From IMG/VR virus record IMGVR_UViG_3300033141_001396, positions 1 through 34,536 of that record: a stretch of DNA of 34,536 nucleotides; one strand, given 5' to 3'. A program made the position numbers and the translations under genes. Below, piece after piece: positions 1,112 through 25,948 of this stretch (the stretch's first letter is position 1; each line of letters starts with the position of its first letter). Under the pieces are notes generated by a model that was not told where the DNA came from, ran no database searches, and saw only the letters and a program-made list of their open reading frames with translations. The stretch comes from a virus.

Positions 1112-1671
1112 CGGAACATCCTGGCCTTGTAGGGGTTTAACAATTGTTTAACACTGTCGGGGATCCCCCGCGCCGGCCCCGCCAGCTCGTGCCCCTCATC
1201 GTAGGTAGCAGAGTAGTCGCTTATGTCACGCCTGAACCAGTAGGACACCAGCTTGATACACGCCTGTTCGAAGTCCTCGGGGATGTTGACCTGTGCCGCG
1301 CCGTAACCGCTGGTGTATGTCACCACCAGGACGCGGTGACCACTTGAGAAACCATCCTCGTAGTATATGTATCCTTCATCAAGATATATGTCGCAGTCGC
1401 TGGTGCTTACGCTATCCCCGTCATCAGTGATAGTGGACACGCTTATAATGGGGTAGTTGTCTAAGAACAGGTAGCAAGTGCCGTCGCCATCATGGGTTTC
1501 CTCGCTGTGTTCCACGTTGATGATGTTCTTGCCTATGTAGGTTTCTATGATGTCTGAAGCGCGGTTGATAAGGTTTTCTAAGGGTGTGTCGTAGTCCTCA
1601 TCGCTGGATTCTATATCCAGATATTCCTTAACCATCGCTACCGTGCATAGGGCGTTCGATGCTAGTGCCAT
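1108..1671 (-). CDS. head-tail connector (gp6/gp15-like adaptor)
   Basis: 187 aa, acidic. The N-terminal helices (VKEYLDI, then LENLINRASDIIETYIGK) followed by a beta-rich centre and a C-terminal helical segment (FEQACIKLVSYWFRRD) are the pattern of the Phage_connect_1 / HK97 gp6 / SPP1 gp15 adaptor family. These rings dock under the portal. Extra beta sequence in residues 60-120 makes it longer than the minimal 100-aa connectors. It overlaps the genes on both sides by a few bases, in the standard order connector - neck - tail terminator. No separate stopper gene was identified. Confidence 0.75.
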   Translation of the reverse strand: MALASNALCTVAMVKEYLDIESSDEDYDTPLENLINRASDIIETYIGKNIINVEHSEETHDGDGTCYLFLDNYPIISVSTITDDGDSVSTSDCDIYLDEGYIYYEDGFSSGHRVLVVTYTSGYGAAQVNIPEDFEQACIKLVSYWFRRDISDYSATYDEGHELAGPARGIPDSVKQLLNPYKARMFR

Positions 1672-2405
1672 TATCCTATCCTCATACTTCTAGTGGGCCA
1701 CTGTGTCATATTGGAAAGCAGGTCTATCTCATCCCCGCTCAACACCCTGTCAAACACCGCTACCCCTATGGGTGCGTTGGCTTGGTAATTTGACCCCGTA
1801 AAACTTCCAATATATAAATCTGTTCCCAAGCTGCTCTCAAGCCCTGTACCTGCTCCAGTATCTACTGTTCCGAACTGTGTTCCATCCAAATAAGCATCTA
1901 GTGTTCCGCTGGAATCACGGGTACATACGATAATATGAACAGTATCAGCAGGCCATTCTGACGATGTAGCCGCAGTAGTACAATATTTAGAAGCCCCCGC
2001 ATTATCATAAACATAATAATTGAGCTGTCCTCCGCCAGTAGAATTGTAATATATCCTAATTCCATTAGTCGCCGCCGCAGCCTCATATACTGTAAAATAA
2101 TGTAATGAAGAATCCCCCCCCGCCCACGGTGTCTTAGTCACCACCACTATGCTCATATCCATCCCAGCGGTTAGGTTTAATCCACTTGAACCTGTGGGGA
2201 ATTTGCAGGAAGTAAAATATGTGGTTTCATCTACCGTGCCGACTATGGGGAATGAGCGGTTGAGAGCGGTGTCAAAGCCTGCATCGCCTGTGGTGGTGGC
2301 GTTTATCATGTGTACCAAGTCCTGTACCGTACCGCCCCCCGTGTCGCTGTTCATGAGCAACACCAGGTTTTTACGGGCTACGGTTAAGCGCTTACTAAGC
2401 ATCAT
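1671..2405 (-). CDS. LamG/concanavalin A-like domain protein, probable capsid or neck appendage
   Basis: 244 aa. From about residue 75 it reads as a LamG/concanavalin A-like jelly roll: a strand-rich stretch with IRIYYNSTGGGQLNYYVYDN, then TLDAYLDGTQ, then DLYIGS and the typical ending IGVAVFDRVLSGDEIDLL. Such domains bind sugars or act as surface appendages. The N-terminal 60 residues may anchor it to the particle. It lies between the beta-sandwich gene and the connector gene, inside the head cluster, so a virion location is likely. The ligand is unknown. Start chosen at the first of two adjacent ATG codons. Confidence 0.65.
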   Translation of the reverse strand: MMLSKRLTVARKNLVLLMNSDTGGGTVQDLVHMINATTTGDAGFDTALNRSFPIVGTVDETTYFTSCKFPTGSSGLNLTAGMDMSIVVVTKTPWAGGDSSLHYFTVYEAAAATNGIRIYYNSTGGGQLNYYVYDNAGASKYCTTAATSSEWPADTVHIIVCTRDSSGTLDAYLDGTQFGTVDTGAGTGLESSLGTDLYIGSFTGSNYQANAPIGVAVFDRVLSGDEIDLLSNMTQWPTRSMRIG

Positions 2406-2410
2406 CCCGC

Positions 2411-2707
2411 CTACCTAAAAGTAAAGGCTTGCAGTGTCGCATCAGTATCACCCACACGCTTGAACTCGAAAGTGTCTCCCGCGTCAGCGTGTAGGGGTAT
2501 AAAGATGATGTCACCAGCTACCAAACGGAACTCATCTGTCACGGTGTCATCCTCGCGTATGTCAACGGAGATACCCCCCGTTTTCTCACGCAAATAGAAA
2601 CCGAATACTTCTTCCGAGAAAGTGAAGGTAGTCCAGTTCTCGTCAGTGGTGGTAACCGCCGCATTGATGCGAAAGTCCTCGTAAATAACGTCATGCGGGT
2701 CAGCCAT
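2411..2707 (-). CDS. small beta-sandwich protein, possible head decoration protein
   Basis: 98 aa, acidic, predicted almost all beta (short alternating strands such as GISVDIRED, DIIFIPLHAD, DTFEFKRVGD). No family recognised with certainty. It starts inside the last codons of the glycosyltransferase gene (8-bp overlap) and is followed 5 nt later by the LamG gene. Size, composition and position two genes after the capsid gene suggest a capsid decoration or spike protein and a possible substrate of the neighbouring glycosyltransferase. This is inference from context. Confidence 0.45.
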   Translation of the reverse strand: MADPHDVIYEDFRINAAVTTTDENWTTFTFSEEVFGFYLREKTGGISVDIREDDTVTDEFRLVAGDIIFIPLHADAGDTFEFKRVGDTDATLQAFTFR

Positions 2708-3638
2708 TGCGCTCGGCAGGCTTGTTAATCAACAGGTGGATAGCGTCTAACCATTCTTGGGGGTCATCGCCCACCAACAGCCCGTTCTTGCCGTGCTTTA
2801 TGGTCAAGTTGTACGGGTGCCTGTCTGAGGCTATGGTGGCTATCCCCATCATGGAGTAGTCCAAAAATTTTAGGTCACTCTTGCCCTGAGTGTTGAAGGG
2901 GTGATCCACCAGGGGGCATAAACCTATATCGAACTCGGCTATCCTCTTGGGATAGTCAGTCACAAAATGGTATATCTCGGGGTCTACCTTTACACCATTC
3001 CACTTGCTGAACTCGGGGAATCCAGGGTCATGCCCCTGCACCTGCACCTGCGCGCCCTCTATGTTGGGCAGGACTTCCCGTAACAGGTCGAGGTCGGACG
3101 TGTGCGTGTCGCAACCTGACCACCCCACTATCATGGTGTGTACCTTGCGCCTCGGCACCTTCCACCTGGAGGCCCACACGTCGAGGTAGTTGGGTACCAC
3201 GTAGGCGGGTTTGTCGAACGTGCTTTCAAGCCACTCTTTCAACCCTGGCGACGGGCAGGTGAACGCATCCACGTGGGGCCATATCTGGCTGAAACCCTTA
3301 TCCCACAACTCGCAGCGCCTCTCGGTCTTGACATCACCAGGCGTTCCCGTGTCGCACCTGTCATCGGTGTCCAGCACGATCTTGGCCCCCATCTTGCGGG
3401 CTATCTTGATAAGGTTGATACTCCCCAACACGTACGACTGCTGGAGCTGTAGTATGTCGCAGGACGCTATGAGGTTGAGGGCGCGTTTACCCAACTCCTC
3501 ATACTCGGGTATAGCCTGCACCAAGTCGGTGTTTATCACCACGTCGGCAAGCCTCATGTTCTGCAGGGTACGGGCCGGCAGGAAACACCTGTAGTACCCG
3601 CAGACATTCTCCCGTGAGTCTAAGTAGAATATCTTCAC
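2700..3638 (-). CDS. GT-B fold glycosyltransferase (GT4-like) within the head gene cluster
   Basis: 312 aa. It has the two Rossmann halves of GT-B enzymes. The N-terminal half contains CDILQLQQSY and KIVLDTDDRCD. The C-terminal half has MIVGWSGCDTHTSDL, the acceptor/donor loop DIGLCPLVDHPFNTQGKSDL with LKFLDYSMMG, and the ending HGKNGLLVGDDPQEWLDAI, where a conserved acid and glycine-rich loop normally hold the nucleotide sugar. The family transfers a sugar from a nucleotide-sugar to an acceptor. Its ATG follows the TAG of the 65-aa gene, and it overlaps the beta-sandwich gene, so it is made together with capsid proteins. Virion protein glycosylation is the most economical role; cell-wall or DNA targets cannot be excluded. 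Confidence 0.8.
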   Translation of the reverse strand: MKIFYLDSRENVCGYYRCFLPARTLQNMRLADVVINTDLVQAIPEYEELGKRALNLIASCDILQLQQSYVLGSINLIKIARKMGAKIVLDTDDRCDTGTPGDVKTERRCELWDKGFSQIWPHVDAFTCPSPGLKEWLESTFDKPAYVVPNYLDVWASRWKVPRRKVHTMIVGWSGCDTHTSDLDLLREVLPNIEGAQVQVQGHDPGFPEFSKWNGVKVDPEIYHFVTDYPKRIAEFDIGLCPLVDHPFNTQGKSDLKFLDYSMMGIATIASDRHPYNLTIKHGKNGLLVGDDPQEWLDAIHLLINKPAERNG

Positions 3639-3896: not shown

Positions 3897-5180
3897 TTAC
3901 AGGGTTACCTTGTATCCGACTGCGGTATGCGTCGCGCTTGAGCTGGTGCCGAAGTCCATCAACGCTATCCTGATACGTGCGTACAGGTTGTAAGCGTCCT
4001 TGTCGGCATCGCGGTCTAGCTCCAGGTCGAGCTGGCGCTTGAAGCCCAACAGCCACGAGTTCTTATGCACCAGCACGATGCTGCCCGTGGTGTTGGACGC
4101 GGCGGTCGCGTTGATGTAACCGTTGGAATCGGTCTTGCCCAACTCCTCGGTGATTATCACGGGGATGCCGTATACCTTGCCCAACTCGCCGTTCATTATC
4201 GTAGCGCTCGGCCCGTACTTATCCACCGTCTCGAACTCGTCAAGAGACAAGGACTTGAGGTAGGTGTATAAGTCGGTGATGAACGCGCAGTTTGAGGGGC
4301 GCGTCGCGTACTTGCCCAGCTTGCCCATGAGCGTGGCGTAATCGGCAACCGCCAGCGAACCCAGGTCGGACTTGCAAGCGGTGTTGTCCACCAGCCCCTG
4401 GTGCCTCAGACCGTCGAACACCAAGTAGCGGTGAGTCGAGGTAATCGAGCTGCCGTAGTAGCTGATGTTCGCGGTGCCGGTTGTCTCATCGCCGTTGACG
4501 ATAACCGCGTCCACCGCATTAGCGATGGCCTGGCTTATGGATGCCCTCACCTCGGGCAGTATGGGGATGATGGAATCCTCCACTAGCTCCTCGGTGAAGT
4601 TGACCTTAGCGGCCAGCTTGACGGCGGTGAGGGTCATTTTCTGGGTTCCCTCATCGCTTGCGGGCGGCGCTGCATTCTCAGCCACCTTGTACACGGTGGG
4701 GTCACTCAGGTTAGCGGGAATGTCGTAGGGGTTGGTGGGCATGTTTACCTCGCGGAACAGCGGCCGGATAAGCGTCTGCTCCTGCCATTCCTCCCACAAC
4801 TGGCCCGCCATTGCGGTGGGCACCCACTCATCGCCTGAGCCTGAGCCGGTCGAGGTCATGGACTTCACGGCAGCCTTGAGTTCCTCGGATGCGGTTTCAC
4901 CCATGATCTCGTTCAGCAGCCACATGTTGGTACGGGAAAGACCCTTGTAATTAACGGTCGATTCCTCGTCGCCGCTGCCAAACTCGTGCTTGCGGTCGAC
5001 CTTCATCTCGGCAAGCTTAGCCCCAAGCTCCTCGGCTACCTTCTCCTGCACCTCAAGCTCGTATGAAGTCTCCATGTCGGCGACCACATCTTCCAGGCTT
5101 TCGATGCGGTTCTTGTACTCGTGGATTATGTTTAGGACATCTTCGTCCATGTCTTCCACTTTCTTCTCTTCGTCAGCCAT
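3897..5180 (-). CDS. major capsid protein, HK97 fold
   Basis: 427 aa. Residues 1-65 are charged and helical (coiled coil around YKNRIESLEDVVADMETSYE), matching the scaffolding delta domain that the prohead protease removes. From about residue 110 the HK97 capsid fold follows: a linker rich in Gly/Ser, the E-loop region, ISQAIANAVDAVIVNGDETT, the P-domain helix, and the closing VHKNSWLLGFKRQLDLELDRD with LYARIRIALMDFG. It forms the icosahedral shell. The protease gene lies just upstream, as usual. Hairpins flank the gene on both sides (5208-5230 and 3857-3884), which suggests that its mRNA level or stability is set separately. Confidence 0.92.
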   Translation of the reverse strand: MADEEKKVEDMDEDVLNIIHEYKNRIESLEDVVADMETSYELEVQEKVAEELGAKLAEMKVDRKHEFGSGDEESTVNYKGLSRTNMWLLNEIMGETASEELKAAVKSMTSTGSGSGDEWVPTAMAGQLWEEWQEQTLIRPLFREVNMPTNPYDIPANLSDPTVYKVAENAAPPASDEGTQKMTLTAVKLAAKVNFTEELVEDSIIPILPEVRASISQAIANAVDAVIVNGDETTGTANISYYGSSITSTHRYLVFDGLRHQGLVDNTACKSDLGSLAVADYATLMGKLGKYATRPSNCAFITDLYTYLKSLSLDEFETVDKYGPSATIMNGELGKVYGIPVIITEELGKTDSNGYINATAASNTTGSIVLVHKNSWLLGFKRQLDLELDRDADKDAYNLYARIRIALMDFGTSSSATHTAVGYKVTL

Positions 5181-5267: not shown

Positions 5268-5924
5268 TCAACTAAGCTTCAACTGCTTCAAACAGAAATC
5301 CTTATATTTCTTAAGCTCCTTTCTGAGATGACTATTCTCATCGTGGAGCTTTAGAATCTCGGTTAGTATCTCCTTTTCCTCTTCCTCGGTGTAAGTATGG
5401 ATGTTGTCTTTATCAGTCGTGTTGCTCATTCGGGCAACAGCCTTATCCACCAAGTCCGTGCCCCCCTCAAGGCTTTTAGCGATTGAGAAAAGGCACTCGG
5501 TGTTAGCGGGCAGGGTGACTACAGCTATCTCTAAGAGGTTGAGGGCAGCGATATGGTTAGCCACGGGCTCGCCCATCTCGCTTTCCTGTATCTCCTCTAC
5601 CACGGGTTCATAGCCTATGGACAGCGCCCTTAACGTGCCCTCCTTTATCTTTTGCCATACCTTCTCCTCGGTGGAGTCTATGTAACCCGTCACCCACAAG
5701 CCCTCGTCCTTCACGCTCACGGCTTTGACGTGCCCTATGGGATTGTGCCAATCGTGCTGGTAGGTAAGCACGGGATTGCGCATATATTCATCCAGATTAA
5801 GGAAGCCCTCGGGGTGTACTATATCCCCCATGCTGTCAATGTCCTTGGTGCTGGCCCATCCCTCTATCTCGCGCTTCTCGTCGTTCACGCTTTTTATCTG
5901 AGCGTGGAATCTCATCTTGTCCAT
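5268..5924 (-). CDS. prohead maturation protease (U35 family)
   Basis: 218 aa. The herpesvirus assemblin-like fold of phage U35 proteases is visible: REIEGWAST at the start, the His motif NPVLTYQHDWHNPIGHV (catalytic His about residue 57 or 60) and the Ser motif TLRALSIGYEPV (Ser102). After residue 165 comes a charged helical tail that may guide the enzyme into the scaffold. It cuts the capsid delta domain and itself during head maturation. It starts with ATG behind GGAGGAAA, 8 nt after the portal stop. Confidence 0.9.
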   Translation of the reverse strand: MDKMRFHAQIKSVNDEKREIEGWASTKDIDSMGDIVHPEGFLNLDEYMRNPVLTYQHDWHNPIGHVKAVSVKDEGLWVTGYIDSTEEKVWQKIKEGTLRALSIGYEPVVEEIQESEMGEPVANHIAALNLLEIAVVTLPANTECLFSIAKSLEGGTDLVDKAVARMSNTTDKDNIHTYTEEEEKEILTEILKLHDENSHLRKELKKYKDFCLKQLKLS

Positions 5925-5932
5925 GTTTCCTC

Positions 5933-7837
5933 CTATATCACCGGCAGTACGTCACACATGCAATTGGGGTGAGCGGGAGGCCCCGGGATCCCACCCGGGA
6001 AACTCTCTTTTATGCCCACTACCTGCCCTTCTAACGCCTCGCATATATCGCACTCATCCCAGGCGCTTCTTGCCCATTCCTTCTGCGTGACCCCCGCTTC
6101 CTTGTAGCTGTATATGCTTCCATCGGTGTAGGCGCGGGCTGTCTCGGTACGAGCCGCCATCTCGCTGCGCCCCGTCTTGGCATACTCGAATATGTTGTTT
6201 ATACGCTTCTCCAAGTCCTTGATGGTCTCACCGGCTGCAAGTGATTCTGACACCTGCTTCATGATGGACTCGACCGTTGTGTGGTTGATACTCTCGCTGA
6301 ACTTACGCGCCATAGTCTCCACGGCGTTAGCGGCATAAGGCGATCCCACATCGAAGGTTATCTGTGTGCCTACGAACTCGCCCGCCACGTTAGCGCCCTC
6401 CTCCATAGAGGCGAACAGCTCAGGCTTGACAGCCTCGCTGAACTTCTCTATCCACTCCTTCTCGTCGAAGGGTGTGGGGATGGTCTTCAAGCCCTTGCCC
6501 CTTATGTTCCTCAACACCTCTATCTGCTGGTCTTGAAACAGGCGCTTGAGCTTGCGGGTCATCTTCTCGGCAACGGGCTCAAGCACCCTGCGGGGCTGGC
6601 GCTTCTTCACCCTCACCTTCAATGTCTCCTGCTGCTCCACGGGCGTAAAGCCGACGGGCATGAGGTTGAAGGGTTTCCACCACGTATCGCCCCAGGGAAG
6701 GGGGTCGCCTATCTGGTACTTCTCCCTAAACTCGTTTATGGTCATCACGCCCGAGCTGGATACGAGCGCATTGGCTATGTTGGCTACCGATTCCCAATTC
6801 TCCTGCAGCGCCGGCACGCTTGAGGTGTCGAACTTCACCATCACCCCAGGCTCGACCAGGGGCGCTAGTTGCGAGTTTATCTTGCCCTCTATCTTGCGTA
6901 TCTTGGGTATTAATACTTCCTCCCAAAACTGGCGCTTCTGCTCGTTCGAGTTAGCGTAGTTTGCATACTCGAATATGCCCACCATCACGGGAGGCACACC
7001 GAATGCGGCAAGTATCTCCTCGCGGTTCATGCGCTTCAACGCCTCGAACTGCATGTCGGTCAGGGAGAGTCCCACCTGCTTCCACTTCAAACCCCCGGTG
7101 AGTATCAGGGTTCTAAACGCCTTGTCGGTGCCGGCGTGGGCCTTGTTAAACTGCTTCTCTAGGCGCTTGATCTCGCCGGGGTTTATGCCATCTTCAGCCT
7201 CCAGCACGGCACCAGGCACAGCGGCGTTCTGGAAGAAGCGCTTGTTGTGGGTGATGGCGTACGTCTCCTGTATCACGGCCTGCAGCGCGCCGCTTAAAGA
7301 CGACTGCCCGTAGTGGTCTGACCACGGGTTGAAATACTTGAGGTGTAGAACCTCGTCGTTTTCAAAGCGAATGGACTTCTTGTTGACGCTGAGTATGTAC
7401 CCCTGTACCAACTCGGTGGGGTGGGGTATGACCCTCATGCGGTCGGGGCGCAACACATACAGCTCGGCTACCTGCCCCGCGCCGTTACGGGCAAGCTCCC
7501 AATAGTTGTTGCCCGTAAGCTCGAGGTAGACCATCATGGACTCTATGAGGTCGTACCCCGAGCAAAAGGGGTTGGGGTTGTGCAGCAGGTTATAGAGCTT
7601 CCCCTTTTTTTCCTCACCGCTGGCTGTCACGGTCTTTATGGGCACACCCGCTATGTTGTGGGATATGGCGAACACACAGGCGTACACCCAGCAGATATTG
7701 CCGTACGTCTTGACGTAATACTCGTAATCTTCGGGCAGCGACACCCCCCAACGCTCCATATATTCACTAAATAGTAAGGGTGTCTGTTGTGACTCCTTAA
7801 CCTTTGTGGGCCTTCTAAACTTTGATAGGAATGACAT
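5933..7837 (-). CDS. portal protein fused to a MuF/SPP1 gp7-like head morphogenesis domain
   Basis: 634 aa, about 200 longer than a normal HK97-family portal. Residues 1 to about 400 are the portal: WVYACVFAISHNIAGVPIK, LLHNPNPFCSGYDL, then the clip/stem segment and MNREEILAAFGVPPVMVG. After a basic linker (VRVKKRQPRR) the last 190 residues match the phage Mu protein F domain: TARTETARAY-type sequence (here MAARTETARAYTDGS), WDECDICEALEGQ with a CxxC, and the terminal HPNCMCDVLPV. The portal ring is the DNA gate. The MuF part is thought to sit inside the head as a minor protein. Here one polypeptide supplies both in a fixed 1:1 ratio. Confidence 0.9.
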   Translation of the reverse strand: MSFLSKFRRPTKVKESQQTPLLFSEYMERWGVSLPEDYEYYVKTYGNICWVYACVFAISHNIAGVPIKTVTASGEEKKGKLYNLLHNPNPFCSGYDLIESMMVYLELTGNNYWELARNGAGQVAELYVLRPDRMRVIPHPTELVQGYILSVNKKSIRFENDEVLHLKYFNPWSDHYGQSSLSGALQAVIQETYAITHNKRFFQNAAVPGAVLEAEDGINPGEIKRLEKQFNKAHAGTDKAFRTLILTGGLKWKQVGLSLTDMQFEALKRMNREEILAAFGVPPVMVGIFEYANYANSNEQKRQFWEEVLIPKIRKIEGKINSQLAPLVEPGVMVKFDTSSVPALQENWESVANIANALVSSSGVMTINEFREKYQIGDPLPWGDTWWKPFNLMPVGFTPVEQQETLKVRVKKRQPRRVLEPVAEKMTRKLKRLFQDQQIEVLRNIRGKGLKTIPTPFDEKEWIEKFSEAVKPELFASMEEGANVAGEFVGTQITFDVGSPYAANAVETMARKFSESINHTTVESIMKQVSESLAAGETIKDLEKRINNIFEYAKTGRSEMAARTETARAYTDGSIYSYKEAGVTQKEWARSAWDECDICEALEGQVVGIKESFPGGIPGPPAHPNCMCDVLPVI

Positions 7838-7844
7838 AATTCTC

Positions 7845-9044
7845 CTATAGCACTATCACTTGTGGCGCTTTGGCTGTGTTGAGTGCATATCTTAAAGCGT
7901 CCATAGCGTGGTCATTCTGTTTCTCGGGCTGGTCGGTGAACTCGCCCTGCTTCTTCTTCCAGCAGTAGGACTCCAGCTCGCTTATCACATTGACGCATGA
8001 GCGGTGGATGTACAGCGACGGCCTACCGTCACGCTTTACCTTGAGCGCCGCCTTTACCGCGTTTATCCCCGGCATGACGCTGTTGTCGGCCTTGGCTGTG
8101 GGCAAGCCCGCCTGTTGAAACTTGGCTATATGCTCAGGCTCGGACGGGTCAGCATAGAAGCGCTCTATCTCATGCTCCAACCTCTGAGCTTCAGTCACCA
8201 TGTCATCCACGGTCTTGCGCCGCTCGTAGTACTCATCCATCACGTAGGCCCTACCGTCACCGTCGAACCCCACGGTGAGCATGACGGCGGGGTTGGTGTA
8301 GCCCCAGTCAACGCCCACTACGTACCTGTCCAGCTCGGGGTAGTTGTGTATGACGTGTATGTCGCGGTCGAACTCGTCGTATACCAAACCCTCAAGCGTG
8401 ACGAACTCGGCGTAAAGCTCCTGCCTTAGAAACTCACCCGAGTAGCCATCCTCCAGCGATTGTATGAAGTCCTCGGACAAGTGCGGGTTGTCGTGGGTAG
8501 TGGCGCGCACCATCACATACCCGTCTTTAACGTCCTCCACCCAGCGCTTGTGTATCCAGTTTTTACCTTTGGGGGTGGTTCCCAGCGCTACCCACTGCCT
8601 GTAGCCTGGCTGCCTTGCGCGCCCTATGAGTATCCGCCATGCGTCCTCTGATACAAGCGCTCCCTCGTCTAAGTAGGCCCATGCTATGTTCGGCCCCCTC
8701 AACGACTCGGGGTTGTCGCATGAGGCTAAAAATATGGTGCTGCCGTTATGGAGTGTTATAACCCCATCGCTCTTGTTGTGCTGTTTGATAAGCCCCTGCG
8801 CTCGTATATCCTCGTTTATGGTGGGCAACACGATACGGGTAAGCATCTTGTAAGAGGGCGCTACTATCATGCCCCTTGAGCCGGGGTTGTAGACTGCGTA
8901 CTCGAACCCCAACAGGCAACCGGCGAAGGTCTTACCGCTACCTATCCCACCCACGTAAGCGGGGTAGCGATGTTCCCATATAAGCGAGTGGAACTCCTCC
9001 TGCTCGGCGAATAGGCTATGCCTTATTTCCGTTGCCGTTGCCAT
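7845..9044 (-). CDS. terL: terminase large subunit (packaging ATPase and nuclease)
   Basis: 399 aa. ATPase half: Walker A GGIGSGKT at residues 32-39, Walker B ending AYLDE (Asp126, Glu127), and a coupling motif at LGTTPKGKNW. Nuclease half: RNase H-like fold with VVGVDWGYTNP (Asp246), the FYADPSEP segment and the final HAMDALRYAL, which provides the last acidic metal ligand. It powers DNA entry through the portal and cuts the concatemer. It overlaps the small subunit gene by 29 bp and is followed 7 nt later by the portal gene. Confidence 0.95.
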   Translation of the reverse strand: MATATEIRHSLFAEQEEFHSLIWEHRYPAYVGGIGSGKTFAGCLLGFEYAVYNPGSRGMIVAPSYKMLTRIVLPTINEDIRAQGLIKQHNKSDGVITLHNGSTIFLASCDNPESLRGPNIAWAYLDEGALVSEDAWRILIGRARQPGYRQWVALGTTPKGKNWIHKRWVEDVKDGYVMVRATTHDNPHLSEDFIQSLEDGYSGEFLRQELYAEFVTLEGLVYDEFDRDIHVIHNYPELDRYVVGVDWGYTNPAVMLTVGFDGDGRAYVMDEYYERRKTVDDMVTEAQRLEHEIERFYADPSEPEHIAKFQQAGLPTAKADNSVMPGINAVKAALKVKRDGRPSLYIHRSCVNVISELESYCWKKKQGEFTDQPEKQNDHAMDALRYALNTAKAPQVIVL

Positions 9045-9414
9045 ACTCTATAACCAGTTTGGGGAAGTCCTCGCCTGAGTGCTGTACCTTGTGCTTGAGG
9101 TCGCCGAACATCTCGTAGTAGAGGCGTATCGCGGCTACATCACCCTTGCGGGCCTTGCGTATAAGGGCGCTATGTATGGTGGGGTCGTTAGCCTTGCGTA
9201 TCTCGGCACTGCGCTTGTTCATGTACTCTATGGCTTCTTCGCGCTTGAAATACTTGTAAACAGTGGTGCGATCTATGCCCGCTTCTTTGCTTGCACCAAC
9301 AATCGTGCCGGGGCCATCGGGATTAAGATACACGTCAACAAAGGTTTTAAACTTCTCGGGTATCTCCCATTCTGTCGATGTTTGTTGTCCCTCATTCTTC
9401 GTCCTCGTACTCAT
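9016..9414 (-). CDS. terS: terminase small subunit
   Basis: 132 aa from the ATG at 9414 (a TTG four codons earlier, at 9426, is a possible alternative). Residues 30-60 contain a helix-turn-helix (TIVGASKEAGIDRTTVYKYF) that would recognise the packaging site. The rest is helical (RKARKGDVAAIRLYYEMFGD), as in Terminase_2/terS-like proteins that form rings. It lies directly before terL and overlaps it. The end GNGNGNK is low complexity. Confidence 0.85.
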   Translation of the reverse strand: MSTRTKNEGQQTSTEWEIPEKFKTFVDVYLNPDGPGTIVGASKEAGIDRTTVYKYFKREEAIEYMNKRSAEIRKANDPTIHSALIRKARKGDVAAIRLYYEMFGDLKHKVQHSGEDFPKLVIEYGNGNGNKA

Positions 9415-9574
9415 CGTATATCTCAACCCTTAATATCTGTTCCTTGAGGTATGCCAACTTCAACACTTCATCTAAACATGTTTCGGGTACGTCCAGTTGT
9501 ACCCGTGCCCCACCGCTGCCATCCAGCTTGATAGCTGATTGAATGGGTGGTAAGGATGCGATAAATTTAATCAT
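9392..9574 (-). CDS. small conserved protein upstream of the terminase genes
   Basis: 60 aa from the ATG at 9574, which overlaps the TAA of the preceding zinc-ribbon gene (an upstream GTG at 9595 is possible). It begins MIKFIASLPPIQSAIKLDGS and ends in an acidic tail (YDEYEDEE). Proteins with this IQSAIxLDGxGG pattern are seen in phage genomes, where they are usually left as hypothetical. Overlap on both sides places it firmly in the packaging operon. Function unknown. Confidence 0.6.
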   Translation of the reverse strand: MIKFIASLPPIQSAIKLDGSGGARVQLDVPETCLDEVLKLAYLKEQILRVEIYDEYEDEE

Positions 9575-9782
9575 CTCGCTTGACGAACCTACCACACTTA
9601 TAACAAGCCTTAAGCGAAGGACTTTGTTTCACTTCCTCAAGCTCCTTATCGCAGAAAGGACAATAATTTCTAGTTTCCCCAAGGAGTTCTATCATGTGTG
9701 ATAGACCATCCCGCAACGCCCCTAGCACCCTTATAAGGTGTTCAACGTTAATATTGACAGTAGTATTAATTGCTTTTGACAT
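9567..9782 (-). CDS. zinc-ribbon protein
   Basis: 71 aa. The N-terminal half is helical (VNINVEHLIRVLGALRDG). The C-terminal part carries two CxxC pairs, CPFC and CYKC, 19 residues apart, as in a rubredoxin-like zinc ribbon. It overlaps the HNH gene and the 60-aa gene. Partner and role are unknown; a DNA- or protein-docking role near the packaging enzymes is possible. Confidence 0.6.
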   Translation of the reverse strand: MSKAINTTVNINVEHLIRVLGALRDGLSHMIELLGETRNYCPFCDKELEEVKQSPSLKACYKCGRFVKRDD

Positions 9783-10149
9783 GGCTTCTCTCCTTCATCT
9801 CCTTGAGCCGTTGGTTAAACCCCGCGTCCCTGTGCGCCTTCATGTGATGTTCGTAACACAGCGCCATGAGGTTATACGCCTCATCGCTACCGCCCGCTCC
9901 CCTAGTCTTTAAGTGGTGTATCTGCAAGCCGTATGTCCTGCCGCACCACTCGCAGTGCCTATGGGTACATCGGTAATCATGTATAGCCTTGAGGCTTCTA
10001 AGCGTCTTTATCTTGGGAATGGGCTTAACGTAGTCCTCAAGCCCTTCTTCTATGTCGTCTGCTTCCACCCTTATGCGCCTCCCCTTGGGCCAGTGGCATT
10101 TAGCCGGTGGAGGTATGGGGCTGCGTATGTTTAAACTCCCGTGCCTCAT
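9766..10149 (-). CDS. HNH endonuclease associated with the terminase
   Basis: 127 aa. The HNH core is clear: CEWCGRTYGLQIHHLKTRG, then the central Asn in DEAYNLMALCYEHHMKAH, with CxxC plus Cys/His residues for a structural zinc. HNH proteins next to terminase genes (HK97 gp74 type) stimulate the terminase and are needed for packaging in several cos phages, so this gene hints at cohesive-end packaging. It overlaps the methyltransferase gene (ATGA) and the zinc-ribbon gene. The basic N-terminal region has no recognised domain. Confidence 0.85.
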   Translation of the reverse strand: MRHGSLNIRSPIPPPAKCHWPKGRRIRVEADDIEEGLEDYVKPIPKIKTLRSLKAIHDYRCTHRHCEWCGRTYGLQIHHLKTRGAGGSDEAYNLMALCYEHHMKAHRDAGFNQRLKEMKERSHVKSN

Positions 10150-10676
10150 TTCCTAACCACCACCTGCAAGCCTTTGTCCATAAGCTCGTGGGGGTGAAGC
10201 ATCAAAAAAGCGTCCACCGCCTTGTGCACTTCCTCACCTTTGATGTCATGCTGGTAGTCGTCCCATATCATCAGGCCCCCAGGCTTGAGCAGGGGCCAGG
10301 AAAGTATCGAATCCCAGAATACATCGAGGACCACGTGGGAGCCGTCGATATAGACGGCATCAAAGAAGCCCCGCGGGAAAGACCTCAATACATCCTGTGA
10401 ACGCGCCTTGAACTTGGTTACCTTGTCCCGATAGGGTTCGATATTCAAGTCGAAATGCGCCTCATAATCGAAATCGAAGCGCTTGTTGGGCGTAAAGGTG
10501 TCCACACACGTTATCCGCGCGTCCGGGTCGGTGAGAATGTTTTCCAAAAACCACACCGCCGAGCGACCCTCGAAGGAGCCTATCTCAAGGAACTCAGCGG
10601 GCTTATCCTTGAACTCATCCAGCAGCTTATCCCATTTCTCAATGTGGCAGGAAATATAGTCGTGGGTATAGGTCAC
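10146..10676 (-). CDS. SAM-dependent methyltransferase in the glycosylation cassette
   Basis: 176 aa class I methyltransferase. Motif I is FLEIGSFEGRSAVW (residues 29-42), the acidic end of strand 2 is ITCVDTF, the third strand FDAVYIDGSHVVLDVFWDS, and strand 5 region LLKPGGLMIWDDY. The arrangement is that of the Methyltransf_24/FkbM-neighbour group, often acting on sugars or small molecules; there is no DNA-methylase (DPPY or PCQ) motif. It starts with GTG overlapping the GT25 stop (GTGA), so it is translationally coupled to the glycosyltransferases. Capping or O-methylation of a transferred sugar is a reasonable inference. Confidence 0.8.
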   Translation of the reverse strand: MTYTHDYISCHIEKWDKLLDEFKDKPAEFLEIGSFEGRSAVWFLENILTDPDARITCVDTFTPNKRFDFDYEAHFDLNIEPYRDKVTKFKARSQDVLRSFPRGFFDAVYIDGSHVVLDVFWDSILSWPLLKPGGLMIWDDYQHDIKGEEVHKAVDAFLMLHPHELMDKGLQVVVRK

Positions 10677-11275
10677 TTCGTATACCTCGAATTGTAAACA
10701 AAAGCTCCGTCACCATCCGAGTAGTCGTCTATTTGCCATACCAAATGTGGAAAGGCTATGTACACGTTTATCTCGGGATAGACCAGCTCACACATGGTCA
10801 CATCCTTGGGTTTATCCAGGCGCATCACATTATCAAGCATGCGTTGATAGGTACTCGACCTTATCCCGTAGGCGTGGGTACACCAGAATTCATCGACCTG
10901 GTATACCCGCTTGGATAAGAAGCGCTTCTCACCCTTGGGGTTGCATCCCAGAAAAATCATGTCCCAATCATCGGGTACTTGTTCAATGAACTCCTCGAAA
11001 AGCTGGTGAAAATTGCGGTGAAATTCCACATCATCTTCGAATATGAAAATGCTGTCGGCCCCATTTGAGAGCTCTATGACTTTCAAGTGCGACAGCTTGT
11101 TTCCCAGCTTGGCGGGACGTAGGTTGTCGGTACCATACTCGGGCTCTATGGCGGGGAATCTAACCACCCCTATATTTTGCTCCTTGAATATCTCTTCCAT
11201 GCGCTCCCTGCGATCCTCGCGCCTATCGAGGTTGATGTACCAAACAATATCGAAGTGATCATTGAAAGCGCTCAT
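10673..11275 (-). CDS. glycosyltransferase family 25-like protein
   Basis: 200 aa. The family signature IVWYINLDRREDRRERM lies at residues 10-26, and the metal-binding DxD-like segment SIFIFEDDVEFHRNF at 75-89 (Glu80-Asp81-Asp82). DWDMIFLGCNPKG and CTHAYGIRSSTYQRML follow, as in LPS/GT25 enzymes. These are GT-A fold enzymes that transfer hexose to LPS or protein acceptors. The length is close to a minimal GT25 domain. Its ATG overlaps the end of the GT4 gene, and its stop overlaps the methyltransferase start. Confidence 0.82.
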   Translation of the reverse strand: MSAFNDHFDIVWYINLDRREDRRERMEEIFKEQNIGVVRFPAIEPEYGTDNLRPAKLGNKLSHLKVIELSNGADSIFIFEDDVEFHRNFHQLFEEFIEQVPDDWDMIFLGCNPKGEKRFLSKRVYQVDEFWCTHAYGIRSSTYQRMLDNVMRLDKPKDVTMCELVYPEINVYIAFPHLVWQIDDYSDGDGAFVYNSRYTK

Positions 11276-12107
11276 ATATCCCCGCTATCTCATCCGCGAC
11301 GTTCACGATGTCATACTTGCTCATGTCGGCGGGGGGGTGGTGCAAGGCCATGTCCTTGATGTTCCCCTCGAGGTCTATGTCGTAGACATACCCGGGCCTT
11401 CCCATGGCCCATCCCTCTATGGTGGAGCGCCCCAGGAGTACCCCGGCGGTGTGTGTACAACGCTTGACATATTCTTCTATCCACCAAGCCTGGTCGTACC
11501 ACTCGGCATAGTCGGGAAGATCGTCGGCCCACGAGTCGTATTTCTTCCCCACAAAAATGACTTTGAAATTCCCGGCACGGGCCCTCTCCATCAAGTCATA
11601 TGCTGATTCTTTCCGCAGCGGGTCTATGGTGCCCGCGAACAGAACTGTTTTTTTATTGGGCAGCGGAGTGGGCCTGAACCGGGAAAAATCTATGCCGTTA
11701 GGGATGACCCTTACTCTTTTCGAGCCCAACCCGCCTTTTACGAGTTTGAGCGCTACCGATTCTCTTATGCAGATATAAGCCTTTATGCGCGGGTCGTAAA
11801 GGGGTTCCTCACACGGGTACTCGCTGTGTACCGTGGCTACCGCCGGCGCGTTGTATCTCTCTAACGCGAACCGCGCCGGCTCAAGCTCGTTTAAGTGTAG
11901 TATGTCGAATTTCTCGTCGGGGGCATCGTCAAAGCTATAGACATCAACACCGTCATATTGCGCCCGCACAAGTAAATCGTTCCCCACCTTGGGAGCAATG
12001 ATGGTGACGCTGTTGCCCCGCTTCATGAGTTCCCGCGCCAGCTCGTAACAGTACATGGGCGCACCGGTAAGCGCGGAAAAATCAATGAGGGAGATAAGTA
12101 TTTTCAT
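11259..12107 (-). CDS. GT4-like glycosyltransferase, first gene of the late operon
   Basis: 282 aa GT-B enzyme. N-terminal half: MKILISLIDFSALTGAPMYC with YELARELMKRGNSVTIIAPK, then FDILHLNELE and AVATVHSEYP. Linker: RVIPNGIDFSRF. C-terminal half: KKTVLFAGTIDPLRKES and GVLLGRSTIEGWAMGRPGYV, where the E-x7-E position contains the donor-binding Glu. It is shorter than the usual 350-400 aa. It is the first gene after the promoter at 12140-12180 and has no obvious ribosome site, so it may be translated weakly. Downstream genes overlap one another as far as terL. Confidence 0.85.
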   Translation of the reverse strand: MKILISLIDFSALTGAPMYCYELARELMKRGNSVTIIAPKVGNDLLVRAQYDGVDVYSFDDAPDEKFDILHLNELEPARFALERYNAPAVATVHSEYPCEEPLYDPRIKAYICIRESVALKLVKGGLGSKRVRVIPNGIDFSRFRPTPLPNKKTVLFAGTIDPLRKESAYDLMERARAGNFKVIFVGKKYDSWADDLPDYAEWYDQAWWIEEYVKRCTHTAGVLLGRSTIEGWAMGRPGYVYDIDLEGNIKDMALHHPPADMSKYDIVNVADEIAGIYERFQ

Positions 12108-12139: not shown

Positions 12140-12180
12140 ATTATAGAAAAAGCATAAAATCCAAAAGCGGGGATTGTCAA
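12140..12180 (-). promoter_or_regulatory. late operon promoter
   Basis: Minus strand: a consensus TTGACA (12180-12175), 18 bp, then TATGCT (12156-12151). A perfect TATAAT follows at 12145-12140 with a poor -35. It lies in the 96-bp gap between the last early gene (stop at 12204) and the GT4 gene (start at 12107), the only sizeable gap upstream of the late genes. It would drive the glycosylation cassette, packaging and head genes. No operator or activator site was recognised. Confidence 0.6.
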
Positions 12181-13378: not shown

Positions 13379-13939
13379 TTAATAATTTTTCACGATATGG
13401 AAGGGTTCTATAACTCCGCCACTCAACTTGGCAGCAGCTTTCAGGGCAGTTAAAATCTTGTCCTCGGGCTTCATTCGCACCCCTACAGCACTAACCGCCC
13501 ACAGGGCACCAAGGGCATAGTCTTGACCACACCCCATAGCCGCCCAACCACAAGATGCCTCCCCCACTTGAAGGTCATCCCAAATCATAAAAAGCCTCTT
13601 ATTGAGGCCCACCAAAAAAGCGGCGTTTCCAAACCTCTCAACCTCGTTTTCCCTGTAGAGCAACCCGTTAGCTTTGAGAACTTCCCGTAATTCGGGAATG
13701 AAGTTGACGACTAAAAATTTTCTTTCATCTCCTTGACCGTCATAATAGGGAGACGGTGCTAACTGATATTGGATAATATCGAGCATACGAAATGAACCAC
13801 AGCCACCAAATACATATTGGTCTCTCCTAAAAACCTTTTTGTCGGCTCTTTCAGTAACACCCATCCGATTATTAACACCGGCACTATCCCCGCCTATCAT
13901 CACGCCCTCATTGGTGCAAAAACCAACAATGCATGTCAT
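13379..13939 (-). CDS. proteasome/HslV-like Ntn hydrolase
   Basis: 186 aa. It begins MTCIVGFCTNEGVMIGGDSA. If Met1 is removed, Thr becomes residue 1, and the other two catalytic residues fall exactly where proteasome beta subunits and HslV have them: Asp17 in IGGDSAG and Lys33 in ERADKKVF. The later segment MGCGQDYALGALWAVSAVG matches the conserved glycine-rich turn and helix (GSG-YALGA type), and residues ALKAAAKLSGGVIEPFHIV the closing helix-strand. The family is a threonine peptidase fold that assembles into rings. Related stand-alone proteins occur in other phages and remain without known function. Its 5' leader can fold into alternative hairpins (13949-14002). Substrate and an ATPase partner are unknown; no unfoldase is encoded here. 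Confidence 0.85.
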   Translation of the reverse strand: MTCIVGFCTNEGVMIGGDSAGVNNRMGVTERADKKVFRRDQYVFGGCGSFRMLDIIQYQLAPSPYYDGQGDERKFLVVNFIPELREVLKANGLLYRENEVERFGNAAFLVGLNKRLFMIWDDLQVGEASCGWAAMGCGQDYALGALWAVSAVGVRMKPEDKILTALKAAAKLSGGVIEPFHIVKNY

Positions 13940-15467: not shown

Positions 15468-15650
15468 TCACATCACGCTGTCATTAATATAACCACTTAG
15501 TAACATTGTGGTATCATTATTTGTGCTAACTGGTATCATTTTTGTACCCCCTTCGGGTACAAACGTACCTTTTATGCGTAAGTTTCGATTATAAGTGGTG
15601 GGTAAATGTTGCAGTAGAAATGCATTATTGCAATCCATCTTACTCACCAC
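15468..15650 (-). CDS. possible small protein after the pentapeptide gene
   Basis: 60 aa from GTG at 15650 (or 57 from ATG at 15641). Start overlaps the end of the pentapeptide-repeat gene, which favours a real operon member, but the sequence (VSKMDCNNAFLLQHLPTTYN and onward) is not recognised and the region contains a strong inverted repeat (15541-15563). It could be non-coding spacer. Low confidence. Confidence 0.35.
   Translation of the reverse strand: MVSKMDCNNAFLLQHLPTTYNRNLRIKGTFVPEGGTKMIPVSTNNDTTMLLSGYINDSVM
15541..15563. repeat. 9-bp perfect inverted repeat
   Basis: TTTGTACCC (15541-15549) and GGGTACAAA (15555-15563) with a 5-nt spacer. It would form a stable hairpin on either strand and lies inside or between poorly supported coding sequence. 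On neither strand is it followed by a T-run, so a terminator is unlikely; RNA stability or a protein site are open options. Confidence 0.6.
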
Positions 15651-16368
15651 CTTGAGTGGAGCTACTCAACCCCAACTCCCCCAAGTCCTTTTCTCCCACT
15701 ATCTTGCACTTCTTCACCCTGAATTTGCCGTCGGACGCTATGGGGATGCACACAATATCCTTTGCGATGAACTCGGCTATGAGGATGCGGTAGCCCTCCC
15801 CCCATCGTCTCATGCACCAATCTAGGGTAGCGAGATTGATACCGGCCCCGCATTGATTATATTCATCTTCATCCCATTCATTTACCGAATAGGATTTATT
15901 CATCTCATATTTGATACCACCATTATACGGCCCTTCGGATTTCTTGTTGACTAGCTTATAGGCTCGTATCTTGCCTACCTGATCTTGGAGGACATAAAGC
16001 GGGGTTGTTCGATATTTACTGATGCCCTTGGCCTCGTAAAGGTTGGCCTCGTAAAGGTTGGCCCCGTAAAGGTTGGCCCCGGAGAGGTTGGCCTCGTAAA
16101 GGTTGGCCCCGGAGAGGTTGGCCTCGTAAAGGTTGGCCCCGGAGAGGTTGGCCTCGTAAAGGTTGGCCCCGGAGAGGTTGACCTTAGAGAGGTTGGCCTC
16201 GTAAAGGTTGGCCCTGGAGAGGTTGGCCTCGTAAAGGTTGGCCCTGGAGAGGTTGACCTTAGAGAGGTTGGCCTCGTAAAGGTTGGCCCTCTTACCATCA
16301 GGTTCATCCAACAACCACTTCGCATGTTTCTCCAATATCTCCGCTAACTTTTCAGGTGTGAATTGCAT
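15640..16368 (-). CDS. pentapeptide-repeat protein with a C-terminal phage-type domain
   Basis: 242 aa. An N-terminal helix (LAEILEKHAKWLLDE) leads into about 17 pentapeptides of the A(N)Lxx type (ANLYE, ANLSG, ANLSR, VNLSK) at residues 26-113. These should fold into a right-handed four-sided beta-helix. The rest (from YRTTPLYVLQDQVGKIRAYK to the end) is a separate domain with YSVNEWDEDEYNQCGAGINL, seen in other phage pentapeptide proteins (DUF5758-like, from memory). Pentapeptide proteins can mimic DNA (gyrase binding by Qnr/MfpA), but that is not established for this group. The coding repeat is nearly identical at DNA level, suggesting recent expansion. Confidence 0.85.
   Translation of the reverse strand: MQFTPEKLAEILEKHAKWLLDEPDGKRANLYEANLSKVNLSRANLYEANLSRANLYEANLSKVNLSGANLYEANLSGANLYEANLSGANLYEANLSGANLYGANLYEANLYEAKGISKYRTTPLYVLQDQVGKIRAYKLVNKKSEGPYNGGIKYEMNKSYSVNEWDEDEYNQCGAGINLATLDWCMRRWGEGYRILIAEFIAKDIVCIPIASDGKFRVKKCKIVGEKDLGELGLSSSTQGGE
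16030..16289. repeat. 15-bp tandem repeats encoding the pentapeptides
   Basis: About 17 copies of a 15-bp unit such as GGCCTCGTAAAGGTT, alternating with GGCCCCGGAGAGGTT, so a 30-bp higher-order unit is visible. Copies differ at only a few positions. The array is prone to slippage and should vary in length between relatives. The open frames seen on the opposite strand here come from the repeat. Confidence 0.9.
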
Positions 16369-24527: not shown

Positions 24528-24860
24528 ATGCGTAGGGTAATATTCATTTCATTAATTGCTTTGTTCTTGTTGTCTCTTATCTTCATTGGTTGCAGTTCCG
24601 GTACATCGGAACTTGAAACCAAGATTGCTGAATTAGAATCAGAGAATGAAATCTTGTGGGAACTATTAACAGATATTGCTAGAATACATGGTGGGATGCT
24701 TGCCCACCAGGACACGATTATGGAGCTTGCTTCTGATCCCGATTTAGCGAACGACGTGTGGCTTGAAGATTTCCTCACATCGATTAAAAATCTAAGTGAT
24801 TCCGTGACTGAATTGGGAGATGCTATCTATTCGAATAAACTTGAGCAACTTGAAGAATAA
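24528..24860 (+). CDS. lipoprotein in the lysogeny module, candidate superinfection-exclusion factor
   Basis: 110 aa. Lipoprotein signal: basic start, hydrophobic segment (VIFISLIALFLLSLIF) and lipobox IFIGC (Cys22). The mature part begins SSGTSELETKIAELESENEI and is an acidic coiled-coil helix followed by another helical segment. Ribosome site AGGAGG. Its stop shares a base with the integrase start. Lipoproteins between repressor and integrase in some temperate phages (Ltp of TP-J34, from memory) block DNA entry by related phages, so that role is proposed by position and topology; the sequence shows no Ltp domain. Confidence 0.75.
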   Translation: MRRVIFISLIALFLLSLIFIGCSSGTSELETKIAELESENEILWELLTDIARIHGGMLAHQDTIMELASDPDLANDVWLEDFLTSIKNLSDSVTELGDAIYSNKLEQLEE

Positions 24861-25948
24861 TGCCAGTTTATAAATACTTCCTCGCAAACGGCGACACCCG
24901 CTACATGGTGAAAGTATCCCACCGTAATACTCAGCACAAGAAGATGGGGTTTCGCACCAAGCACCAAGCCGAGGCATACGAACGCGATAAAAAGGATGCG
25001 CTGATTACCTATAAGAAAAAGCGCTGTGCCCCTTCCACCATAAAGGGCTACGAGACACAACTGCGCTTGAGAATACTGCCGGCTATAGGCAAAAAGGGCT
25101 TGGGCGGGATCACCCCCCTTGAGTTACAAACCCTCCTGGACTCCTGCCCCTCCCCGCGCCTCACCAACAAATGCAGGGTGGTCATCGGGTCTATATATAA
25201 GAGCGCCGTTGGGTGGGGGCTTACGAAGTACGATCCCACGCGCGCCCTCCACGGCCTACAGGAGAAAAAGCGGGAGATGCGGTTTCTCACCACCGGGGAA
25301 GCTCAAGCCCTCCTTTTTCACTTTTCCACTTTCGGGCCCGTCATATATTTCTACTTTACCTCCCTGGCCTTGGCAACGGGCATGAGAGTGGGAGAGTTAT
25401 TTGCCCTCGAATGGCTGGACATAGACGAGGAACATATAAGCGTCACTAAATCTTGGGGCAGTGGCAAGATGGGGCCACCCAAGGGCAAGCGCCCCCGTGA
25501 GGTCATTATCCCACCGTCCGTGTTTAAGATGCTCATGCGCTACTACCTCGAATGTGGGAGGCCGTCACCCTCGTCACCCGTTTTCCTGCGCGACAACGGC
25601 AAGCGCTTAGAGGTATGGGTATACCGCTACCAGTTGGACAAGGCTGTTAAAGCTATCGAGATGGAGCATGTGCGCCCCCACGACCTGCGCCACACCTACG
25701 CCGCCTGGTGTATCGCGGGGAACATCAACCCCAAGTTCATACAGAAGCAGTTGGGACACAGCTCAATACTCATCACTATGGACACATACGGGCATATAAT
25801 GAAGGACCTGGAGGAGCACTATATCGAGTGGGCGGAGAAACAAATCGTACCAAATCTGTACCACGGGATACCTTCAGGCTTTGAAGCCTTCCTGGAATCT
25901 GGTAATGGGAAGGTCATTTATCCAGCTAGATGGCGAGATAAAAATTAA
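24860..25948 (+). CDS. int: tyrosine integrase
   Basis: 362 aa. N-terminal arm-binding region (MPVYKYFLANGDTRYMVKVS, AP2-like) and a SAM-like core-binding region (STIKGYETQLRLRILPAIGK). The catalytic domain has Arg176 in GMRVGELFAL, a Lys near 198-210 in the beta hairpin, His274-x-x-Arg277 in HDLRHTYA, His300 in LGHSS and Tyr310 in DTYGH, so all key residues are present. It joins attP and attB. It begins in the last base of the lipoprotein gene (TAATG), so the two are coupled. After Tyr310 the tail is longer than usual (about 50 residues). Confidence 0.95.
   Translation: MPVYKYFLANGDTRYMVKVSHRNTQHKKMGFRTKHQAEAYERDKKDALITYKKKRCAPSTIKGYETQLRLRILPAIGKKGLGGITPLELQTLLDSCPSPRLTNKCRVVIGSIYKSAVGWGLTKYDPTRALHGLQEKKREMRFLTTGEAQALLFHFSTFGPVIYFYFTSLALATGMRVGELFALEWLDIDEEHISVTKSWGSGKMGPPKGKRPREVIIPPSVFKMLMRYYLECGRPSPSSPVFLRDNGKRLEVWVYRYQLDKAVKAIEMEHVRPHDLRHTYAAWCIAGNINPKFIQKQLGHSSILITMDTYGHIMKDLEEHYIEWAEKQIVPNLYHGIPSGFEAFLESGNGKVIYPARWRDKN

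Follow-up and report, generated by a model that had tools for sequence, protein, structure and literature searches.

What do three glycosyltransferases and a methyltransferase modify when their genes stand among the packaging and head genes of an uncultured phage? The phage in question is represented by IMG/VR virus record IMGVR_UViG_3300033141_001396, analysed here in its entirety (34,536 bases; hereafter the window). It is siphovirus-like, has an HK97-type head and is temperate, as indicated by an integrase gene on the plus strand (24860-25948); nearly all other genes are carried by the minus strand. On that strand, the order of transcription begins with genes for a GT4-like glycosyltransferase, a GT25-like glycosyltransferase, a Methyltransf_24 protein and an HNH endonuclease, and continues via two small genes to the terminase small subunit (TerS; 9016..9426; phrog_24579, 1.1e-22), terminase large subunit (TerL; 7845..9044; Pfam Terminase_6N, 2.8e-20, and phrog_2, 2.3e-60), a portal protein fused to a MuF-like domain (5933..7837; Pfam Phage_portal, 2e-81, and Phage_Mu_F, 1.7e-14) and the prohead protease (5268..5924; Pfam Peptidase_S78, 4.7e-18). 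After the protease come the major capsid protein (MCP; 3897..5180; Pfam Phage_capsid, 7.2e-16), a 65-aa protein, a third glycosyltransferase (GT-B), a 98-aa protein recognised by position only (2411..2707; Pfam and PHROG searches gave no match above noise), a LamG/concanavalin-like protein (1671..2405; Pfam Laminin_G_3, 1.3e-10) and a connector (1108-1671).

A blastn search against phage records returned no close relative of the window, viral scans with GT4, TerL and GT25 matched a single sister contig (L003), and the GT4 query found no match among genomes. The MCP matched one 4.5-kb Salinibacterium MAG contig (42%) in a genome scan, which is too little for host assignment. Elsewhere in the window, the early region encodes an Ntn-hydrolase-like protein (13379-13939) similar to the phage 'peptidase HslV family' (phrog_1040, 1.4e-17), and positions 15640-16368 encode a pentapeptide-repeat protein (Pfam 1.6e-48) that is possibly gyrase-directed or a DNA mimic.

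An earlier, sequence-only reading had described the four enzymes, and all four open reading frames are indeed present on the minus strand where it had put them; Pfam bears out the identities that it gave to the three upstream proteins. The GT4-like glycosyltransferase (11259..12107, 282 aa) matches Glyco_transf_4 (1.2e-15) with its N-terminal domain only, the C-terminal half giving no Pfam match. We found no match to it in phage records and only a weak PimA match among PDB sequences. The GT25-like glycosyltransferase (10673..11275, 200 aa) matches Glyco_transf_25 (PF01755, 9.6e-12), has an intact EDDV motif, and has as solved relatives R655 and procollagen galactosyltransferase. Among PHROG families it matches phrog_2835 (3.5e-15) and, weakly, phrog_854 (E 0.022), the family of Che8 gp110. 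The third protein (10146..10676) is a class I SAM O-methyltransferase of the Methyltransf_24 family (PF13578, 4.4e-20), with an acidic pattern (IDGSH...DDY) as in metal-dependent O-methyltransferases; its Asp...Asp-Asp pattern aligns with TylF-type proteins in an alignment that includes Che8 gp108 and Wildflower_33. A PDB sequence search with it was empty, and single-sequence AlphaFold models of GT4 and the methyltransferase reached a pLDDT of 34-35, too low to be of use.

Relatives of the methyltransferase lie directly upstream of TerS in ctz7E20 and in another viral contig, L031 (38%). The latter (5760-10353) has a tandem pair of Methyltransf_24 genes immediately ahead of TerS and, between TerS and TerL, four similar glycosyltransferase genes in a row, of which the three scanned are TAGT (PF20691). 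The L031 TerL is itself broken by intein-like insertions, making this an unusual glycosyltransferase cluster within a packaging module.

The cassette genes had also been said to overlap one another and the packaging genes. This is correct: GT4 and GT25 overlap by 17 nt, GT25 and the methyltransferase by 4 nt, and the methyltransferase and the HNH endonuclease gene, which links the cassette to the packaging genes (9766..10149, minus strand; Pfam HNH, 2.8e-5), by 4 nt. All gaps between 12107 and the protease gene (5268) are of 8 nt or less; an interval of 87 nt then separates the protease gene from MCP. The three upstream genes are therefore structurally within the packaging/head run, and their codon use bears no mark of foreign origin.

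Whether this run begins with a late promoter, as the sequence-only reading had it, is less clear. The part of the claim that stands is a plausible sigma-70-like match, TTGACA-18-TATGCT (10/12; 12151..12180, minus strand), found by consensus scan in the 96-nt gap upstream of GT4, which is the only sizeable gap. On the other hand, sites of this kind are not in excess over shuffled sequence (5 found against 7.5 +/- 3.1 expected). The genes upstream of the gap share the strand of the cassette, and a transcription start within the gap is plausible. The GT4 start codon (12107) has no Shine-Dalgarno-like sequence (CCACCCTTTTATTACC-ATG), whereas many other genes of this phage have clear AGGAGG-type sites.

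The third glycosyltransferase gene (2700..3638, minus strand) lies between the capsid and LamG genes, a placement now confirmed by gene calls and Pfam. Its product is a GT-B enzyme (Glyco_trans_1_4, 2e-8) of the phrog_7162 family (2e-29), which is annotated 'glycosyltransferase'; PDB sequences gave no useful match. The window copy is truncated at its C-terminus. The sister contig, 99.96% identical to the window over 12.4 kb, encodes a GT-B of 345 aa (L003, 11451-12488) against 312 aa in the window, which is missing 109 bp at 2708. The truncation point is passed by 79/79 related viral proteins, and Trp334, absent from the window copy, is conserved in 66/80 sequences. Given the 109-bp loss and the extension of every relative beyond the truncation point, the short form in the window results either from faulty assembly or from damage to the gene in this variant. 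Compared with the sister contig, the window is also missing 99 bp in frame at 1072, shortening a gp10-like protein, as well as about 1.05 kb across the record ends, where most of the gene for the major tail protein would lie. Additional genes may be absent from the record, to the extent of about 1 kb at least.

Do the two sites belong together? One could regard the upstream cassette and the downstream GT-B as unrelated morons that do not form one system, with the GT-B perhaps decaying: 6.5 kb separate the two, the glycosyltransferase families differ between them, and the GT-B is truncated in the window record. However, the gene is intact in the sister contig, and its codon use matches that of the head genes. 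Moreover, another viral contig (IMGVR_UViG_3300033512_000056, hereafter L078; 6855-14489) brings GT-B, methyltransferase and GT4 together in a single run. The genes of its compact head cluster are, in order, MCP, GT-B, double methyltransferase, GT4, PIG-L deacetylase, kinase, adaptor, LamG; the GT-B is of the same family as that of the window, and the GT4 is a homologue of the window GT4 (78 bits, E 2e-22). L078 differs from the window in having one block after MCP, an additional PIG-L deacetylase and kinase, and a methyltransferase of FkbM type, and no GT25 was found in it. The shared cluster nevertheless suggests that the window's two separate sites are one functional set, and we regard the unrelated-moron explanation as highly improbable.

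If the four enzymes act together alongside packaging and head genes, the obvious comparison is with phages whose virions carry glycans, a parallel that the sequence-only reading had drawn with actinophages. The parallel holds: Che8, Corndog and Myrna virions are reported to be glycosylated, and Che8 gp110 and Corndog gp38 are described as essential (PMC12363180). In such mycobacteriophage virions, the glycan acceptors are stated to be capsid and tail tube proteins (PMC12363180 and PMC11256854), and both sources cite Freeman et al. 2023 for the Che8 glycosylation genes gp108-gp110. The end of the Che8 genome encodes gp108 (GT2 fused to Methyltransf_24/TylF), gp109 (GT2), gp110 (GT25; PF01755, 1.2e-7), gp111 and gp112 (HNH), and its start encodes TerS-TerL. 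When circularised, Che8 thus has, like the window, an overlapping glycosyltransferase run, a Methyltransf_24 domain, GT25 and HNH, then TerS-TerL. It differs in its GT2 enzymes and GT2-methyltransferase fusion, in place of which the window encodes a GT4 and, as a separate protein, a methyltransferase from a different branch, and in having no GT-B beside MCP. Similarity between the GT25 sequences is marginal: the window GT25 matches the Che8-type GT25 set weakly (hmmsearch E 0.016) and Wildflower_36 with a pairwise E of 6e-4 in a 27-protein set. On these scores, the case for orthology of the window GT25 to Che8 gp110 or Corndog gp38 would be a weak one.

A second arrangement is seen in cluster O. 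Corndog-type phages have an O-methyltransferase and three glycosyltransferases between portal and protease, and, because capsid peptides were under-detected, the authors of PMC4351075 suspected that the Corndog capsid is modified in a complex way by methyl groups and glycans. Wildflower has the order TerS-TerL-portal-O-MT-GT-GT-GT25-protease-MCP, the first gene of its cassette (33-36) being TylF/Methyltransf_24 and the last GT25 by Pfam. Cluster O (Corndog gp35-gp38, Wildflower 33-36) thus resembles the window in having an O-methyltransferase and glycosyltransferases, here three, within the packaging/head run, and differs in that the cassette lies between portal and protease and has a methyltransferase that is TylF-like. 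Several marks of a Che8/Corndog-type cassette are found in the window: a GT25-class enzyme (PF01755, as above), an adjoining glycosyltransferase and O-methyltransferase-type gene (GT4 and Methyltransf_24 both overlap GT25), and packaging/structural placement, with the HNH overlap leading on to TerS-TerL-portal.

The same enzyme classes occur near TerS-TerL or head genes in Che8, Sbash, prophiGD43A-1, Wildflower, Poise and mEp390, though not every class in each. The integrated order in prophiGD43A-1 is glycosyltransferases, GT25, HNH, TerS, TerL, portal; Sbash has GT2, GT25, HNH, and Poise O-MT, GT, GT, GT. Che8, Sbash, mEp390 and prophiGD43A-1 all have an HNH gene after GT25. Glycosyltransferases lie ahead of virion structural genes in QBert, Phabba and Myrna, directly so in the latter two, yet Rabbitrun has glycosyltransferases and HNH with no structural gene within 5 kb. 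Outside actinobacteriophages, the E. coli HK97-like phage mEp390 carries GT, HNH, GT, HNH (gp54-gp57), then TerS-TerL, with gp56 a distant homologue of Che8 gp110. Like the window, it has glycosyltransferases and HNH just before TerS-TerL; unlike the window, it has no methyltransferase, and its glycosyltransferases are of the GT2 family. Part of this mEp390 stretch (L016, 3725-6644) is matched by 13/5426 complete E. coli genomes, 2 of them over at least 80% of its length.

With these enzyme classes at a matching position in Che8 and other phages, decoration of the virion, possibly with methylated sugars, emerges as the best reading, as the sequence-only reading had proposed. We consider it likely that the four enzymes together glycosylate the virion and that their genes are expressed along with those for packaging and head. 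The comparison with these phages supports this reading well.

Enzymes of the GT4 and GT25 families are also used for surface polysaccharides, and those of the window might instead alter a wall or envelope glycan of the host, blocking superinfection or changing serotype. The window phage is temperate, as would suit such a role, and host serotype change by phage glycosyltransferases is established (work cited in PMC10955285). However, the cassette is joined to the packaging/head operon rather than lying beside the integrase, and in Che8 and Corndog, similarly placed cassettes of the same class have the virion as their target (PMC12363180). GtrABC-type seroconversion is further disfavoured because GtrA (PF04138) and GT2/GtrB (PF00535) are absent from the window record, searches with both being empty while controls worked. 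We therefore judge modification of the host surface to be unlikely.

The phage's own DNA is another conceivable target, with sugars and methyl groups being put on modified bases. TAGT, the family found between TerS and TerL in L031, is named for TET-associated DNA glycosylation, and in that contig the Methyltransf_24 relatives adjoin TAGT, PIG-L and PAPS-reductase genes; furthermore, the best PHROG match of the window methyltransferase is labelled DNA methyltransferase. That label looks misleading, judging by Pas34 of phiAsp2 (L020, 3214-5004), which is annotated DNA methyltransferase as well, has Methyltransf_24 as its only Pfam match and lies inside a glycosyltransferase cassette. We thus rejected the PHROG name as the identity of the window methyltransferase, and the label of Pas34, shared with phrog_2675, is probably misleading too. 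DNA modification is also disfavoured because the window has no hydroxymethylase/thymidylate synthase (PF00303), Thy1 (PF02511), C5 methylase (PF00145) or TAGT (PF20691): none of the four gave a window match, controls having worked, which upholds for these families the earlier statement that a base-modification gene is lacking. PF12851 (Tet_JBP), for which controls were silent, stands outside this negative. On balance, DNA hypermodification seems very unlikely.

Returning to virion glycosylation, how might the system work? The glycosyltransferases would draw on host nucleotide sugars - no epimerase was found in the window - and would assemble a short glycan on one of the abundant proteins of the virion; the Methyltransf_24 enzyme would probably methylate a sugar hydroxyl of this glycan, thereby capping it. 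By analogy, capsid and tail tube proteins would be the candidate acceptors; by position, the LamG and 98-aa proteins are candidate decoration proteins or acceptors. Which protein accepts the glycan, how the glycan is built, in what order the enzymes act, that the genes are co-transcribed and how the phage benefits are all points that we infer. The C-terminal tail of the window MCP is Ser/Thr-rich (TSSSATHT). How rich in Ser and Thr the C-termini of the MCP and the tail tube protein are was otherwise uninformative when compared with Che8.

How far does the pattern extend? A search with a four-member GT-B profile added 79 IMG/VR loci to the family; clustering at 80% identity left 62. Among the 55 non-redundant loci with enough flank, scored with home-made profiles of limited sensitivity, an MCP gene ends no more than 1.5 kb upstream of the GT-B relative on the same strand in 13, and downstream in none (0/55); most have no detected adjoining MCP. 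As a statistic the recurrence is strong, with a binomial probability of about 2e-8 if a chance rate of 3.3% is assumed, but approximate, since the loci are not fully independent. Of the 141 immediately neighbouring genes scanned, the commonest encode SU10-type head-tail adaptors, methyltransferases (rhamnosyl O-methyltransferases among them), GT2 and GDP-mannose dehydratase/epimerases. In Streptomyces phage Zuko, a UDP-glucose dehydrogenase and a relative of the window GT-B stand directly before the terminase region; relatives are found also away from head genes, in phAPEC8 and Atuin. It is quite possible, if not quite probable, that capsid glycosylation is widespread among environmental tailed phages, with diverse and often methylated head glycans far beyond the actinobacteriophages, built jointly by a phrog_7162-like GT-B that is conserved beside the capsid gene, sugar-nucleotide enzymes, O-methyltransferases and LamG decoration proteins.

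Glycosylation of phage virions is a recent finding made in mycobacteriophages, whose particles it protects from antibodies (PMC12363180). The Che8/Corndog-type cassette is already known; its wider counterpart among environmental phages merits attention. The presence of such enzyme classes at the packaging-gene position in an unrelated uncultured phage suggests that virion glycosylation extends well beyond mycobacteriophages. Together, the window phage, the related enzymes of an E. coli HK97-like phage and the capsid-side glycosyltransferases of environmental contigs make the generality of glycosylated virions testable, as are their role where antibodies are absent and the question of whether head-adjacent glycosyltransferases should lose their labels as DNA- or host-surface-modifying enzymes.
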